Shown here: positions 9,710 to 25,142 of the stretch, piece by piece
Layout of the letters: the number at the start of each line of letters is the position of its first letter
Numbering within the stretch: the stretch's first letter is position 1
IMG/VR virus record: IMGVR_UViG_3300022939_000107
Coordinates: 1 to 27,350 of that record
Source: a virus
DNA length: 27,350 nucleotides
Reading direction: 5' to 3' (one strand)
Program-made: the position numbers and the translations under genes
The notes under the pieces: model-generated
The model's database searches: none
Told to the model about the DNA's origin: nothing
What the model saw: only the letters and a program-made list of their open reading frames with translations

Positions 9710-11626
9710 ATGTCAAATAAAGAAAAAAACACACTTTGTACAGCTTCTGATTGTGTGTCCCCTTTACCAGAAGGTAGGCAAAAATACTGTAGCGACAAGT
9801 GCGCTAACAGAGTAAAGAAGAGGGCATATAGGGCAAAGAAGAGTGCAAAAGATATACAGGTTGTAAAAGACGTAGATCCAAACATACAGAAGCGTAGGGG
9901 AGACTACTACGCCATTATGAAGAAAAAAAATTTTTTTAACGACATTTTATCAGGTAGCAAAACTAAAAAAGAAATTGCCGACATACTGAACTGTAGCCAA
10001 GCAACTGTTAGTAGGGCTATGGCAGCGTATGTAGAAGATATGGCAAAAGAAGCAGAGTACGAAAAACGTACAAAAGCGGTTGTGGGGGAAATCCAGGAAG
10101 CGGACGTAGACGACTTTGTAAAATTTAGAGATGATTACTTTTTAACAGAACAAGGTAAGAATTATGAAACACCTGACTTTCAAAAGAAGTGGATTGGTGC
10201 TATCTTAGATAGTATAAAACATGGGAACAGGTTAATGATACTGTCACCACCTAGACATGGTAAAACAGACTTGTTAACACACTTTTGCGTATACATGATA
10301 TGTAAAAATCCTAACATTCGTATCATGTGGTGCGGTGGTAACGAGGATATTGCAAAGAACAGTGTTGGTGCGGTATTAGACCATTTGGAGAATAATGAAG
10401 GACTTATCCAAGATTACGGAGACTGGGACGGATTTAGACCTGCTAATCGTTCAGGAAAAAGTTGGTCGTCCAGTCAATTTACTGTTGCAACTAGAACAGT
10501 CTCTGGTATTAAGTCGCCAACTCTTGTCGCAATTGGAAAAGGAGGTAAAATCCTTTCCAGAGACGCAGACCTTATTATTGCAGACGACATCGAAGATCAT
10601 GGAAGCACTGTGCAACCAAGTGCTAGAGAAAACACCAGGAACTGGTGGACCACAACGCTACAGTCAAGAAAAGAGGAACATACAGGAATGGTCGTCATTG
10701 GATCAAGACAGCACCCAGACGATTTATACCATCACCTCTTAGAAAACAAAGCATGGGAAAGTATTGTAGACCGTGCGCATGATTTAGAAGTACCACTAGA
10801 AGATGAAACTATAGACCATACAGAACACATGTTATGGTCAGGCAAGCGTTCTCATAAATGGTTATTAGAACAATTAGCTGCAGCAGAGACAACAGGTGGT
10901 AGAAATATATTTGAAATGGTCTATCTTAACAAAGCTATACCAGACGGTATGAGTTTGTTTACAGCAGAAGCAGTAGATAGTTGTTTAGATCCATCACGTA
11001 AGTTAGGTGACATACCACCACATACAACACTTATTGCAGGATTAGATCCCGCAAGTACGGGATACCAGGCAGCAGTGTTATGGGCGTATAATGTAAAAAC
11101 ACAACAAGTATGGCTTGTAGATATAAAAAACGATCAAGGCGGTGGTATACAAAAAGCACACGCATTAATGAAAGAGTGGTATGACAAGTATTGGTTATCA
11201 CATTGGATAGTAGAAGAAAACGGTTTTCAACGTGCTATAGGACAAGACAGAGATATACGTAACTGGGCAGCAAGTCACGGTGTCAGAATAGAAGGACATC
11301 AAACCTATAAAAACAAATGGGATCCTACATTCGGTGTTACCAGTATGGTAGGTATGTATGAAAACCAAAAGATAAATTTAGCATGGGGAGACGCTGCAAC
11401 AAAACGTAAAGTAAATATTTTTAGACAACAGCTTATATATTTTTCACAAGCAGGTGCAAGTAATTCACGTAATGTTAAAACAAAAACTGACTTAGTTATG
11501 GCAAGTTGGTTTCCAATGAAACGTATACGCACAAACGTAAAAATGATGTTAGCTGAAGCAGAGAGCGACTATACTCCTTCTTATAACTATTATAAGCAGA
11601 GTGAATACAACGAGGTTTTTTGGTAA
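9710..11626 (+). CDS. terL: Terminase large subunit with N-terminal zinc finger and HTH
   Basis: Packaging motor that pumps DNA into the prohead and cuts it. I choose ATG 9710 (638 aa); the upstream TTG 9677 lies inside the inverted repeat region. Domains: zinc finger C10-x4-C15-x11-C27-x3-C31; helix-turn-helix at about 83-108 (TKKEIADILNCSQATVSRAM); ATPase with Walker A SPPRHGKT (179-186) and Walker B DLIIADDIED (287-296); RNase-H-like nuclease with D446 (AGLDPAST), E502/E503 (WIVEENGF) and D594 (KTKTDLVMASW). All catalytic elements are present. The N-terminal 120 residues are an addition to the usual TerL, and no small terminase gene lies upstream between the control region and terL, so the HTH may recognise the packaging site itself. 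No Shine-Dalgarno is seen. It ends in a TAATG overlap with the portal gene. Confidence 0.93.
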   Translation: MSNKEKNTLCTASDCVSPLPEGRQKYCSDKCANRVKKRAYRAKKSAKDIQVVKDVDPNIQKRRGDYYAIMKKKNFFNDILSGSKTKKEIADILNCSQATVSRAMAAYVEDMAKEAEYEKRTKAVVGEIQEADVDDFVKFRDDYFLTEQGKNYETPDFQKKWIGAILDSIKHGNRLMILSPPRHGKTDLLTHFCVYMICKNPNIRIMWCGGNEDIAKNSVGAVLDHLENNEGLIQDYGDWDGFRPANRSGKSWSSSQFTVATRTVSGIKSPTLVAIGKGGKILSRDADLIIADDIEDHGSTVQPSARENTRNWWTTTLQSRKEEHTGMVVIGSRQHPDDLYHHLLENKAWESIVDRAHDLEVPLEDETIDHTEHMLWSGKRSHKWLLEQLAAAETTGGRNIFEMVYLNKAIPDGMSLFTAEAVDSCLDPSRKLGDIPPHTTLIAGLDPASTGYQAAVLWAYNVKTQQVWLVDIKNDQGGGIQKAHALMKEWYDKYWLSHWIVEENGFQRAIGQDRDIRNWAASHGVRIEGHQTYKNKWDPTFGVTSMVGMYENQKINLAWGDAATKRKVNIFRQQLIYFSQAGASNSRNVKTKTDLVMASWFPMKRIRTNVKMMLAEAESDYTPSYNYYKQSEYNEVFW

Positions 11627-19538: not shown

Positions 19539-21232
19539 CAGAAGAATATAAGCAAGCACTCGTAGACAGTATTAAAGCGCAAAGACAATTAGACGATAGC
19601 GCTGAATTTGCTAAAGAATTGAATGGTCTTGTTAAAGAAGGCATATCAGACGCATTGTTTATTGCAAAAGTAAATACTGCATTAGCTATATACGATCAAA
19701 GTTTAAATAGACAAGCTGAAACTGGATTAGGTATAAACAGAACAACTAAGAATGTTATGACTAACGCACTTAACGAAGCTATTGCAAGTGTTGAATTAGA
19801 AGGTAGAAACGCAGGTTACGCACCTGGACAATATACAGCATGGTTAGTAAATACACCACTTGACGTACGTGCAGACATATTAGAAGGACTTGATGTCTCT
19901 GCAGGTATAAAAGCAGCAGAAGAGAGCCAAGAGTATTTTGATTATCTTGTAGATAAGTTAGATGAATGGTATGACGCTACAGGTCAAATTGGTGCATTAG
20001 TTAAACCAGGCGGTGGTAAAGGTGTTGTATTGTTTTCATCTGGTGAATATGACAGATACAAAAAGAATTATGACAATCCAGAAGACACTATGCAAATATT
20101 TAGAGAGACTGATCCTGGTAGAACAAAAGTACCTAAAAAAGGATTTAGAACACAACCAACTGTTTTGTATGAACCAATAATGTCTGGTGATCCAGGTAAA
20201 TATGAATTTAGTGGTGAGTATAACAACAGAGTAAAAGATATATCTGACAATACATACAAGACTGTTGAACAAGCAGGTGGTCAGATAACAAAAATAAATA
20301 ACGAAACTCTTGAAATAGAAAAACTTACAGTTTCAGATAGTGAATATATAGCACTAGAAGAAGGTCAACTTGATGGTGGTTATACATTAATAAGAACACA
20401 AGAAGCTGCTGCAGTAGAACAAGCTAAAGCTGCATTATCAGATCAAGTAGATATTCCAGGTTACGGATTATTTGGTGGTATTACTCCTGGATATACAGTA
20501 TATAAAAATCCAGACCTAGCAGCAGTATTTGAAGAAGGCAAAGAACTTACACCTGGTGATTTAGCAGCAGAGACAATAACACTTACAGAAGAACAAGCAG
20601 CTAAACAGTATGGTGGGCAAGATCACATACAAATTGGTTACAACATGTTGCCACAAGAGAGATTAGCAGTACAAACAGATTTATTACAAGCAGGTTACTT
20701 AACCTATGACGAATGGTTTTTTGAACAAGGTAGTTGGGGATCAGCAAGCCAAAGAGCTATGCTAGAAGCCATGACTAATGCTAACTATGAATTAGCAGAT
20801 ATTGGAACACATCTAACAGAAGAGAAAGCAAGACTATACAAGAGACCACCATTACTTCCTAAAGTATTTGTAGAGCCAAGCCCTACACAAATAAAAGCAG
20901 AAATAGATGGTGCGTTAAGTGCAATAGGTATTGATAGAGAATTATCAGAAGCAGAGATGGTAGCTTTTGCAGACTTCTATACTGAAGCAAGTAAAGACTA
21001 TGAAACTGCAGTTGCTAACTTTAACAAGAATTATGACTTAGCACAACGTATGTTTCCTGGTGCAGATAAGAATTTGACAGTACCTGAAGCACCACAAGCT
21101 AGTTTGCAAGAGTATGCAGACAGTGTATTAGGTGCAGAGGTACGAGCAACAGAGCAAGCAACAAAGGAAAGAAATGATCTTAGCTACTTGTTTGGCACTC
21201 TTGATAGCATGTCCAGGTTGGCTAGTGGTTGA
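19535..21232 (+). CDS. Large virion-operon protein, 565 aa
   Basis: GTG start in a GTGA overlap with the giant gene; GGGAG just before. Helical, Ala/Glu/Gln-rich at both ends (KAQRQLDDSAEFAKELNGLV; QASLQEYADSVLGAEVRAT), with a Gly/Asp-rich middle (LVKPGGGKGVVLFSSGEYDRY; GDPGKYEFSGEYNN). No enzyme motif recognised. A virion or internal protein acting with the giant protein is the natural guess. The lysozyme gene begins inside its last 59 nt. Confidence 0.65.
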   Translation: MTEEYKQALVDSIKAQRQLDDSAEFAKELNGLVKEGISDALFIAKVNTALAIYDQSLNRQAETGLGINRTTKNVMTNALNEAIASVELEGRNAGYAPGQYTAWLVNTPLDVRADILEGLDVSAGIKAAEESQEYFDYLVDKLDEWYDATGQIGALVKPGGGKGVVLFSSGEYDRYKKNYDNPEDTMQIFRETDPGRTKVPKKGFRTQPTVLYEPIMSGDPGKYEFSGEYNNRVKDISDNTYKTVEQAGGQITKINNETLEIEKLTVSDSEYIALEEGQLDGGYTLIRTQEAAAVEQAKAALSDQVDIPGYGLFGGITPGYTVYKNPDLAAVFEEGKELTPGDLAAETITLTEEQAAKQYGGQDHIQIGYNMLPQERLAVQTDLLQAGYLTYDEWFFEQGSWGSASQRAMLEAMTNANYELADIGTHLTEEKARLYKRPPLLPKVFVEPSPTQIKAEIDGALSAIGIDRELSEAEMVAFADFYTEASKDYETAVANFNKNYDLAQRMFPGADKNLTVPEAPQASLQEYADSVLGAEVRATEQATKERNDLSYLFGTLDSMSRLASG

Positions 21233-22076
21233 TGTATCTGACTATACAGGACAAGTAAATTATTTATCACCTATAGGTGTTTTTAATAACGAAGTACCAC
21301 AAGACGAAACTGAAATTATAGAACACAAAACATCACAAGCTGCTATTGACTTTTTAAAAGATAAAGAAAAAATAGAACTAGAAGCGTATGATGATGGTGC
21401 AGGTAATTGGACTATTGGTTACGGACATACAGGTAGAAGTAGTGGTGTACCTGTAAAAGAAGGCATGGTAATTACAGCAGAAGAAGCTGAAGAATTATTA
21501 GTACAAGATTTACAAGAGTTTGAAAAGAATGTTTATAATCGTATGGTCAATTACAATACGCCATTATCACAAAGAGAGTTTGATTATTTAATTATTGCTA
21601 CATTTAACAGAGGTAATGACATAGTAGGTAAATCACTGTACGAAGCTGTAAGTAAAAGAGATAGAAATACTATTACAAAACTTATGGCAAAAACAATAGC
21701 GGAAAGTGATCCTAATGTTATTAAAGGTTTAGAAAATAGATTAGTAGATGAAGAAGAGTTTTTATTTGACTATTCACAATATATACCAACAACTACAACA
21801 ATGGGACCTGTAAATTTACCAACAACTACAACCACAACAATGCCAGGTAAAACACAGGCAGGTTATCCATTTGATATATACACACCACCAAATCCAAAAA
21901 AAGAAAAAGATAAATTAGAAGGTTTTTTAACAAAAATGGAAGAACTAGGTATAGCATACGAAAATAAAATAAATGAGATACTAGGTTTAGCACCAGGAGA
22001 AAAACCACCAAAACACGGTGTTTTAGGAAATGCAGTAATACAGAAATTTAATAAATGGTTTGGTAAAAATGGTTGA
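21174..22076 (+). CDS. GH24 (T4-type) lysozyme with N-terminal hydrophobic segment and Thr/Pro linker
   Basis: Cuts the beta-1,4 bond between MurNAc and GlcNAc in peptidoglycan. AAAGGAAAG just before ATG 21174 decides the start (300 aa) over GTG 21132. Residues 1-20 (MILATCLALLIACPGWLVVD) form a signal or membrane segment; LLIAC is lipobox-like. The catalytic series E65-x8-D74-x5-T80 is complete (KEKIELEAYDDGAGNWTIGYGHT, in pieces), followed by EGMVITAEEAEELL and LSQREFDYLIIATFNRG, all standard GH24. A Thr/Pro linker (204-225) leads to a C-terminal domain of about 75 residues, perhaps for wall or virion binding. It lies among virion genes, not beside a recognised holin, so it may act during entry; a signal-arrest or exported endolysin is the alternative. 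Confidence 0.88.
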   Translation: MILATCLALLIACPGWLVVDVSDYTGQVNYLSPIGVFNNEVPQDETEIIEHKTSQAAIDFLKDKEKIELEAYDDGAGNWTIGYGHTGRSSGVPVKEGMVITAEEAEELLVQDLQEFEKNVYNRMVNYNTPLSQREFDYLIIATFNRGNDIVGKSLYEAVSKRDRNTITKLMAKTIAESDPNVIKGLENRLVDEEEFLFDYSQYIPTTTTMGPVNLPTTTTTTMPGKTQAGYPFDIYTPPNPKKEKDKLEGFLTKMEELGIAYENKINEILGLAPGEKPPKHGVLGNAVIQKFNKWFGKNG

Positions 22077-23898
22077 ACAAATACCAGTACCAGATAATTT
22101 GCCACCAAAAAAATTATATCATGGTTCAGGTGGTTTTATAAAAGGACCAAAAGGCGTAATAGCAGCAGATAATATAAATTACGATATAGGATTTCACGTT
22201 GGTACATACAATGCTGCTGTAGACAGAAGAGCAGGAACTTTTGGTGATGACAATATAAATAAAATTATTAAAACTGCAGGACAATATGTTGATGATAAAT
22301 TAGAAAATTACAGTAGTGATTTCATGATTGCAGCAGAAGACTATAAAAAAACATTTGATAGTAGCAGATCAAATCCTTTATTTTATGATGAAAGTATTTT
22401 TTATAAATTAAATACAGATAAACCATACATACACGAAGTTAGAATAATGGGTTTTATGGAAGATGATAGAGCTACAATGAGATTATTTTGGTCTGATGAC
22501 GTAATAAGAAGCACATTGCAAGGCAGGAAACCAGATATTATTGAGACACAAGAATATGCTTATGTTGATTTCGATGAATTAGGACAAGTTGATGAGGTAT
22601 ATTCTGGACCACAATTTGATAGTTGGATAAAAAGTCAAAGTAAATTAAACGCACCAGAGTATTTTACAAATGATATTTTGTATGAAATAACTATGAAACC
22701 AGAAGCAGTGCAAGCTAAATTTAAAGACATTGGTGAAGTATATCTAGCTTTTGATGGTACACATATCCGTTTGTCTGACGCTGATAATATGGCAAATAAT
22801 CTACAAAGATATGTTGCAGGATATGATGGCAATTTAGATTGGAACGGTGTTAGTGCAGGTGGTTTTATTGCAGAGTTAGACATTGCAACTGCAGACCAAG
22901 TACGTGATGGTATTATCAGTCCAAATCAAGCATTAGCTAAATCAAAAAATTTATACAACGGCAGTGAGTTTTTAGATGAATTTGGTAATGCTGACATGCT
23001 GTCTTATACAAATGTTGTAGAAGATAAAGGTCAGAAAAGTTATATTATATTAAATGGAGACATTGTAGATATACAACCTGCTAATACAACAGATCAAATT
23101 AAGTTTCAACTCGAAGTAGATAGAAAACAAACAGAGACATTTATGAAACCACTTAATTTATATAGTGATGTTGACACAACACAGGTATTGGATATACCTG
23201 AAAATGTTACTAAACATATAGAAAGTGATTACATTATGTCAGGCATGAGAAACATGGACAGAACTGTATCTACGTCAAAAGACGCACGTATATTATTTTT
23301 AAATGATAATGTTATTCCCACTGTTAAAGGCACTGGCAACATAAACACATTGTCAGATGAAATTATAAACATTATAAATCCTGAACAAACACTTAAAGAA
23401 AAAGCTAAAAAAAGAATAGCAGACAGAGGTAAAAATTTAGGTAAAAGATTAGGAGTAGTAAATCCATTAGCAGGTGGACCTATCGGTGCAGCTATTATGG
23501 AAGCATTAGATTACTATGAAACATTTGTTATGACTGCAGGATTAGCGTATGGTTTTGCACCAGACATAGATACATTTGTAAAAAACCAAGCAAACAATAT
23601 GTTGGAAACTATGGCAGGCGCAGCAGGATATAAAATAAATTTAGACGATTACGAATATGATTGGCAAAGAGTAAATAAATCATTAGATTGGATAGAAGCT
23701 GTATCACCAACAGATATAGTATTAAAAAAAGCAGGCAAACTTATAAGTGAAGTAGGCGATACTGGTGCAGTTACAGGTTTTGGCTATGTACCTATTGAAG
23801 ATACATTAGGTAAAACATTGACATCAGGGCAAACAAAAGAGAAAGAAAGAGATCCTATGTATGATAGAATAAGTAGGACATTTAGTGGACAATATTAA
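22069..23898 (+). CDS. Virion-operon protein with ADP-ribosyltransferase-like domain, 609 aa
   Basis: ATG 22069, overlapping the lysozyme stop by 8 nt; TTG 22060 is less likely. Residues 15-340 read like the ART domains of phage polyvalent proteins: KLYHGSGG (15-22, NAD-binding start), GFHVGTYNAAVDRR (41-54, the G-x-HfGT-x-x-A strand), YIHEVRIMGF (a beta strand), and LSYTNVVEDKGQKSYIILNGDIVDI from 311, matching the Y-x-N-x-vE-x-x-G-x-x-SYivf end with E318 as candidate catalytic glutamate. The rest includes a basic helix (KEKAKKRIADRGKNLGKRLG) and a Gly/Ala-rich amphipathic stretch. ARTs move ADP-ribose from NAD to proteins; T4 Alt is a packaged, injected example. Target unknown. Motif match by eye; the enzyme may be inactive. 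Confidence 0.55.
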   Translation: MVEQIPVPDNLPPKKLYHGSGGFIKGPKGVIAADNINYDIGFHVGTYNAAVDRRAGTFGDDNINKIIKTAGQYVDDKLENYSSDFMIAAEDYKKTFDSSRSNPLFYDESIFYKLNTDKPYIHEVRIMGFMEDDRATMRLFWSDDVIRSTLQGRKPDIIETQEYAYVDFDELGQVDEVYSGPQFDSWIKSQSKLNAPEYFTNDILYEITMKPEAVQAKFKDIGEVYLAFDGTHIRLSDADNMANNLQRYVAGYDGNLDWNGVSAGGFIAELDIATADQVRDGIISPNQALAKSKNLYNGSEFLDEFGNADMLSYTNVVEDKGQKSYIILNGDIVDIQPANTTDQIKFQLEVDRKQTETFMKPLNLYSDVDTTQVLDIPENVTKHIESDYIMSGMRNMDRTVSTSKDARILFLNDNVIPTVKGTGNINTLSDEIINIINPEQTLKEKAKKRIADRGKNLGKRLGVVNPLAGGPIGAAIMEALDYYETFVMTAGLAYGFAPDIDTFVKNQANNMLETMAGAAGYKINLDDYEYDWQRVNKSLDWIEAVSPTDIVLKKAGKLISEVGDTGAVTGFGYVPIEDTLGKTLTSGQTKEKERDPMYDRISRTFSGQY

Positions 23899-25142
23899 TG
23901 GCAGTACAAGATAAATCAGCAAATAGACTTATAAACACTATATCTAAAGACTTTGAGATATGGGAAGAAATAACAGAATTTGGTAGTAAATTCTATCTTG
24001 TTGCACAATTACCTAGCTTTGAAGGAAGCGGGGGGGTGTTTACATGGCGTTACGAAATATCAGATTGGAACGCAGTAAAAGAAAAAGTAGCAGGAAATAA
24101 TTTAGTAGCAAATGTTGTTGTAGATAGTGACTTTAATATTATTGAAGGTACATCAAGTATTACAGGACAAGACTATAGTAATAGCTTTTATTTTGGTAAT
24201 GCTAACCAGTTATTGTTTTCTACAGCAGAACCAGGTGCAGAACCTTATGATCACTTAGTAGAAGCATTAAAAGAAGAAGCTAAATATAGTGAGTGGATAT
24301 TGTCAGAAGATGAAGATGGTAGATTAGATTTCTTAGCTATAGCTATAGAGAATGCACTAGAAGGTAAACAAGTTAGAGCAGCAGATCTACAAAGAACTAC
24401 TTGGTGGAAAACACATACACCTACAGAACGTGCAGCAGCAGAGTTGTTTGCAAGTGATCCTGCACAATATAAAGAAAAAGTTTTAAACACACAACAAACA
24501 ATTGTTGACGGTATGATTGCACGTGGTGTGCAAACAATAAATGCAGATGTAGTTGCAGGTCTAACTAATTTGTTTAGTAAAGGAACTATATCTGATGAAG
24601 ATGAACTAGGCAAGATATTAGATAAGATGGTAAATGATCGTATAAGATATACACCAGATCCAGAAGTACAAGCTGTATTAACAGGACAAAGTTTTGACAC
24701 AATACTTGCTACAAGAGATTTAGCATTAGGTATAGATCAAATTATTGGACCTGGTGCTAGTGAAAACTATGACTTAGAAGCTGTATATAAAGAAGCACAA
24801 GCTAATCCTGCATGGTATAGCGAGGTGTTCATACCACAAGTAGAAGCAGCATTTCAAACTAAATATTCACAGTTTCAAGGTACAGAAGTAAAATCATACG
24901 AAACTGCAGCAGGTGCTTTTAGAAATGAATGGGAAAGTATTACAGGACAAAAAGCAGATGAAACGTCACCTGCATGGCAAAAGTTTTTTGCAACAAATGA
25001 TGTAAAAGAAAGAGAAGATATTGCATTTGGAGAAGCAGCTAAATTAGGTACACAAACTTATAGAGATACATTAGCAGCTAAGATGGAAAAATCTTTTGGT
25101 AGAGCAGGACAAAGAGCCACAGGCGGAGGTAGATTTCAATGA
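23898..25142 (+). CDS. Virion-operon protein, 414 aa
   Basis: TAATG overlap with the preceding gene, ATGA overlap with the next. N-terminal ~115 residues are beta-rich and aromatic (FGSKFYLVAQLPSF; GGVFTWRYEISDW); the remainder is helical, with TTWWKTHTPTERAAAELFASDP near 165-190, and a Gly/Arg-rich end (GRAGQRATGGGRFQ). No enzyme motif. The layout (beta head, helical body) suits a structural or ejected virion protein. Codon use matches its neighbours. Confidence 0.6.
   Translation: MAVQDKSANRLINTISKDFEIWEEITEFGSKFYLVAQLPSFEGSGGVFTWRYEISDWNAVKEKVAGNNLVANVVVDSDFNIIEGTSSITGQDYSNSFYFGNANQLLFSTAEPGAEPYDHLVEALKEEAKYSEWILSEDEDGRLDFLAIAIENALEGKQVRAADLQRTTWWKTHTPTERAAAELFASDPAQYKEKVLNTQQTIVDGMIARGVQTINADVVAGLTNLFSKGTISDEDELGKILDKMVNDRIRYTPDPEVQAVLTGQSFDTILATRDLALGIDQIIGPGASENYDLEAVYKEAQANPAWYSEVFIPQVEAAFQTKYSQFQGTEVKSYETAAGAFRNEWESITGQKADETSPAWQKFFATNDVKEREDIAFGEAAKLGTQTYRDTLAAKMEKSFGRAGQRATGGGRFQ

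Follow-up and report, generated by a model that had tools for sequence, protein, structure and literature searches.

A probable ADP-ribosyltransferase-like late protein of a marine phage and the polymorphic payload slot that encodes it

Gene P of the virus recorded in IMG/VR as IMGVR_UViG_3300022939_000107 (27,350 bases; this whole stretch is called the window hereafter) codes for a 609-residue protein, and lies between the genes of a phage lysozyme and of a conserved late protein. Its gene occupies a slot whose payloads are swapped between phages, P being one of the variants, which a preliminary description made from the window's sequence could not see. The gene order around the slot, the constant C-terminal anchor of its proteins, the swapping of their N-termini, the conservation of motif residues in the N-terminal domain of P and the behaviour of this domain as a cassette in other phages are direct observations. 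The reading favoured here, by a modest degree, is that P is a late and probably virion-carried protein in which an anchor is joined to a payload, a fast-evolving ADP-ribosyltransferase (ART)-like enzyme that would be delivered and would use NAD+, and that its slot is polymorphic. Virion-delivered multidomain phage proteins with ARTs are already known. New are the family to which the domain belongs, the slot with payload and anchor in this group of marine phages, and a DNA seam within the slot genes.

Gene order, constant anchor and replaceable N-termini

A search with the window's terminase yielded 76 related loci, and 44 of their full records were searched with P. Full-length homologues were found in G006 (48% identity) and G029 (41%), both with the same gene order, together with one near-identical copy. 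Proteins from G004, G032 and G038 match only the last ~190 residues of P, and the slot proteins of G004 and G038 start with a NUDIX domain (PF00293, E=2e-9 and 2e-8). A second clade, whose g1825 protein is ~55% identical, has a slot protein of 1474-1850 aa, with NUDIX and GNAT domains in some members; the late protein after it is a different one. In more distant phages the slot is occupied by GNAT, methyltransferase or HPr modules. The relatives of P have their C-terminus in common and exchange what precedes it; the C-terminal domain is therefore constant, and the variation is at the N-terminus. The corresponding features of P are:

22069..23898, + strand: P, 609-aa slot protein with an ART-like N-terminal payload and a C-terminal anchor; the reading frame is open from ATG 22069
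23332..23895, + strand: C-terminal domain, residues 422-609, proposed virion anchor (alignment, hmmsearch; helical in the AlphaFold2 (AF2) model, at low confidence)
23791..23895, + strand: C-terminal tail, residues 575-609, ending in DPMYDRISRTFSGQY, also present at the lysozyme end in G003, a phage without P

The G003 lysozyme (L093:201-1160) carries a degenerate linker, DTPMNTVD, followed by the last ~33 residues of P (MYDRIxRTFSGKF).

The window and its relatives with homologues have in common the gene order terminase-portal-g81-g154-g1825-g565-lysozyme-slot-g414-g433-scaffold, where scaffold is a label given by position to a 148-aa protein. The terminase (PHROG 38, E=3e-67) and portal (PHROG 104, E=1.5e-5) genes are upstream of P in the same direction, and proteins of 1825 and 565 aa are encoded between them and the lysozyme. 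The immediate neighbours are:

21132..22076, + strand: phage lysozyme, directly upstream of P (Pfam PF00959, E=1e-21; PHROG endolysin, E=5e-31)
23898..25142, + strand: conserved late gene g414, directly downstream, whose start overlaps the P stop by 1 nt

The lysozyme stop overlaps the P start by 8 nt; an alternative TTG start at 22060 would add 3 aa to P. The lysozyme match and the conserved gene order bear out the placement of P directly after a lysozyme and among large late genes that had been proposed for it. Like polyvalent proteins, P is a multidomain protein coded among late virion genes. Comparison with L003 indicates purifying selection (12 synonymous versus 6 amino-acid codon changes).

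The probable ART-like domain

The N-terminal domain was studied in a set of ten sequences, covering residues 1-354 of P, in which the homologues are 19-44% identical to P. P and its two full-length homologues have in common LYHxS, GFHxGTYxAAxDR and YxNxxEDxGxxSY. The seven further members were found among slot proteins: L203, L165 and L205 (hmmsearch E=7e-14, 7e-12 and 4e-8), and L247, L248, L249 and L253. The domain and its conserved elements map as follows:

22102..23103, + strand: ART-like domain, residues ~12-345, with large insertions at ~60-200 and ~215-295 (ten-sequence alignment; AF2 strands and local confidence)
22111..22134, + strand: motif I, KLYHGSGG (15-22), with invariant H18 on strand b1 (alignment, AF2)
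22189..22227, + strand: motif II, GFHVGTYNAAVDR (41-53), strand b2 and helix, with invariant H43, G45, T46, Y47, A49, A50, D52 and R53
22675..22695, + strand: strand b3, ILYEITM (203-209), with invariant L204 and Y205 (alignment, AF2)
22993..23049, + strand: motif III, DMLSYTNVVEDKGQKSYII (309-327), strands b4 and b5, with D309, Y313, N315, E318, D319, G321 and S324

G128 is also invariant in the ten sequences, and nine of these extend far enough to include V350 and the residues listed for motif III, none of which varies among them. The preliminary description had assigned ART motifs of phage polyvalent proteins to KLYHGSGG (15-22), GFHVGT (41-46) and TNVVEDKGQKSYI (314-326, with E318). Its gene, coordinates and three motif positions are correct, and the positions predicted conservation: of the 21 columns in which conservation reaches at least 90%, 9 (H18, H43, G45, T46, N315, E318, D319, G321 and S324) fall within its 27 residues, where 1.6 are expected (hypergeometric p=3.5e-6). 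The three active-site positions of an ART (H/R on b1, H/Y/S on b2, E/D/h on b5) are occupied by fitting residues on strands assigned by prediction, H18 and H43 being present in 10/10 homologues and E318 in 9/9 reaching that position. H18, H43 and E318, with R53 and D52, are the candidate active residues.

An AF2 model built from 19 alignment rows has strands b1 (16-20), b2 (42-45), b3 (203-209), b4 (310-314), b5 (323-327) and b6 (333-337), and helices at 47-56, 298-306 and 340-359. Its mean pLDDT is 60 and its pTM 0.51, but at the motifs, b3 and b4-b6 most ten-residue blocks reach 74-87. The elements of the predicted secondary structure follow each other as in an ART, with two large insertions. 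In the last of the Foldseek comparisons with the PDB, the top-probability matches, which are non-significant, were the RES toxin chains 9r35 and 6gw6 (probability 0.33-0.41, E~0.3, TMt 0.34-0.35). RES is a fold of the ART superfamily. An hhalign comparison of the strand-defined core with seven phage polyvalent ARTs aligned 79 columns co-linearly (P=0.0013; 0/60 shuffles scored as high). As the core was chosen by the analyst, this comparison is support and not proof.

Several results weigh against an ART identity. The AF2 models are of low to medium confidence (mean pLDDT 60-65), and Foldseek gave no significant match in the PDB for either of them nor, for the first, among viral models. P has no Pfam, PHROG or PDB sequence match. 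The ART-PolyVal profile PF18760, which detects its prototype with E=1.5e-11, matched 0/12 records (P and 11 relatives) at E<=10. Over the full domain, hhalign against the same seven polyvalent ARTs aligns motif I only (P=0.02), and the weak core result depends on the analyst's selection of the core. Packaging of P is proposed from its gene position and anchor.

The polyvalent ART clade has the active site H-Y-D (PMC5512222). H18 corresponds to its first residue, but none of the ten sequences has the expected Y, its place being taken by H43; membership of the polyvalent ART family is therefore not sustained, and the description can go no further than ART-like. With H-H-E the domain does not fit cleanly into any of the H-H-h, H-Y-[EDQ] and R-S-E clades into which ARTs are divided (PMC9503650). 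Significant relatives were absent from 50,697 phage records searched by tblastn with P and two diverged domain homologues, and genome contigs searched for the domain gave none. The ART interpretation is thus partly supported: the conserved motifs and the predicted order of elements stand, with no significant match to an ART. The label ART-like is probable, not proven. The domain probably belongs to the ART superfamily, and with somewhat less confidence it would be an active enzyme.

Cassettes and the DNA seam

A search with the anchor profile gave 18 loci. In several of them (L146 and L151-L154) the N-terminal part consists of successive modules with DTPTNVVDD as the linker between them, and the linker DNA is identical base by base in nearly every copy. 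This seam of ~28 bp, AGACACACCTACAAATGTAGTAGATGAT, encodes DTPTNVVDD in frame and has as its core the inverted repeat CTACA-AA-TGTAG. It occurs in L146, L148, L151-L154 and L157-L231, with up to 5 copies per gene, and module breakpoints are located at it. The seam 22-mer is present in 75 viral contigs, every time in frame inside an open reading frame; in 62 of the 75 there are homologues of late genes of the window as well, and their portals share 56-87% identity with the window's portal.

The same synonymous codons are used in 17/17 seam copies from loci that were fetched by protein or terminase, which rules out that the identity is an artefact of searching with a DNA pattern. By the codon usage of these genes, the chance that one copy uses these codons is 0.02, the copies not being independent of each other; for comparison, the codon differs at 33% of the residues that P shares with its 48% homologue. 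The conserved stretch of ~28 bp is sharply delimited and takes in the third base of the variable codon before it (94% A); the seam is therefore conserved as DNA and not only as protein.

A 222-aa cassette is found in five genes with unrelated neighbours (L172, L175, L158, L199 and L179). Its DNA is 91-98% identical pairwise, whereas the flanking 300 bases on each side are at or near background (<=0.53), and the seam is located at the breaks. Homologues of the ART-like domain behave alike: the domain directly follows the seam in L165 and L205, linker-like sites are on both sides of it in L249, and the L203 protein starts with it, the seam following. The sequences show exchange of seam-bordered cassettes, and homologues of P's ART-like domain are among these cassettes. 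In P the seam is absent, as the window holds no copy within 3 mismatches; the linker-like DIPENVT (aa 375-381 of P) was rejected as a copy on this ground.

The slot could be, on a tentative view, a payload-exchange system for virion-delivered effectors, in which cassettes are traded at an in-frame seam that serves both as linker and as recombination homology or site. The seam would drive the exchange from phage to phage by recombination at short homology, and the products would be delivered. Genes for an exonuclease (PHROG 284) and a RusA-like resolvase (PHROG 244) are present in the window, and phage annealases can act on homology as short as 28 bp. If this is true, widespread uncultured marine phages have a modular warhead, with a constant particle anchor and interchangeable enzymes, whose reshuffling is visible in sequence. 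New phage effectors could then be found by reading whatever sits between seams, and the rebuilding of multidomain injected phage proteins would become testable, a question raised for kinase cassettes only in the study of polyvalent proteins (PMC5512222). The ART-like domain would add a candidate ART family of H-H-E type that current family libraries do not match.

Other modules were seen in slot proteins. In L184, L208, L169 and L178 the seam is followed by a PTS-HPr domain (PF00381, best E=3e-5); HPr, a phosphocarrier of sugar uptake, is a possible delivered payload. Residues 510-681 of the L168:6354-8408 product match class II fructose-bisphosphate aldolase (PF01116, E=6e-36). Inspection by eye points to a further possible ART, of the R-S-E type (WRGG ... 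S(T/M)SKS ... ExE), in L203, L165, L223 and L247, followed in L203, L223 and L247 by a methyltransferase-like domain (weak Methyltransf_23 matches in L203 and L223), and to modules with a ParB-like motif (EGNHRL) in L153, L165 and L247.

Elsewhere in the window, positions 2428-2766 code for a 112-aa SET-domain protein (PF00856, E=2e-7), which also matches a PHROG of unknown function, and the large terminase subunit (9716-11626) has an N-terminal match to the CGNR zinc finger (PF11706, E=2e-5). Relatives of this terminase in annotated phages are mostly from Streptomyces phages, at 27-28% identity. An 84% relative (L256, NZVE01000026) is in a metagenome bin labelled Rhodobacteraceae, which is a possible hint to the host or a case of misbinning; metagenome bins are often wrong for lytic phages.

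Proposed role, alternatives and known systems

Packaging and injection have been predicted for ARTs and Nudix proteins coded next to lysozyme or late genes (PMC5512222, PMC9503650). P would be expressed late with the lysozyme, with which its gene overlaps, and would most likely be incorporated in the particle through its C-terminal anchor of ~190 residues, a step supported by the constancy of the anchor and by the presence of the last ~33 residues on the G003 lysozyme. From the behaviour of the class (PMC5512222, PMC9503650) it would then be delivered with the DNA and, early in infection, modify or deplete a host target in a NAD+-dependent manner. Packaging and delivery would fit the gene order and the payload/anchor anatomy. 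In relatives the slot holds NUDIX, GNAT, methyltransferase, HPr or unrelated modules, and many of these phages exchange them as cassettes.

The N-terminal domain might instead be a divergent virion domain with another enzymatic or binding fold, HGS, GTY and NxxED forming a different active site or a structural core that does not use NAD+. The lack of a significant ART match by any method, the large insertions and an invariant GTYxAAxDR that is longer than the usual ART motif II would agree with this. It is nevertheless rather unlikely, given that H, H and E never vary and follow the ART order on predicted b1, b2 and b4-b5, that the core profile scores above all shuffles, and that there are slot variants with NUDIX, GNAT and methyltransferase-like domains, which are typical of phage effectors. 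A degenerate, catalytically dead relative of ARTs, serving as a structural part of an ejection protein, would account for the rapid divergence (homologues at 19-22% identity) and the insertions; the retention of the candidate catalytic residues in all homologues makes it improbable.

Another possibility is that the ART-like domain is active without being delivered, and that P acts late in the producing cell, where it might affect translation in the host, the timing of lysis or competing phages, or assist the lysozyme in lysis. The 8-nt overlap of the two genes and the tail of P on the G003 lysozyme speak for it. This role is unlikely: the conserved gene order places the slot after large late genes and before the scaffold gene, a constant anchor with a variable payload is the pattern of packaged effectors, and 1474-1850 aa, the size in the larger clade, is unusual for a lysis accessory. 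A packaged and delivered ART-like payload remains the preferred reading of P.

T4 Alt had been invoked as a precedent. The likeness lies in the proposed role only, an ART carried by the particle, and is a functional analogy; by these searches P is not a homologue of Alt, and has no sequence relationship to Alt, ModA or ModB, as P and its domain family have no PHROG match to any named family and no Pfam match. The prototype of ART-PolyVal (PF18760) is the vRNAP of Roseovarius Plymouth podovirus 1 (PMC5512222). The domain of P resembles this family in the YHG motif on b1, the helix with Ala after b2, the b3 pattern, the D before b4 and a later acidic residue, as well as in being coded among virion genes as one domain of a multidomain late protein. 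It differs in lacking a profile match, in H43 for Y, in its N-x-x-E-D-x-G motif III and in its two large insertions, profile similarity being weak.

Polyvalent proteins at large (PMC5512222) are likewise mosaic late proteins with ART, GNAT and ParB domains, coded near lysozyme or virion genes and predicted to be packaged and injected. P differs from them in having one payload and a short clade-specific anchor, and its relatives assort modules at a repeated DNA seam. Such a seam is described neither in PMC5512222, where the words linker and shuffl* are absent, nor in the wider literature as covered by a non-exhaustive search. NudE-type and other Nudix proteins of late gene clusters (PMC9503650) are paralleled by the NUDIX payload beside the lysozyme in G004 and G038, which differs from them in being fused to an anchor that it has in common with the ART-like domain.
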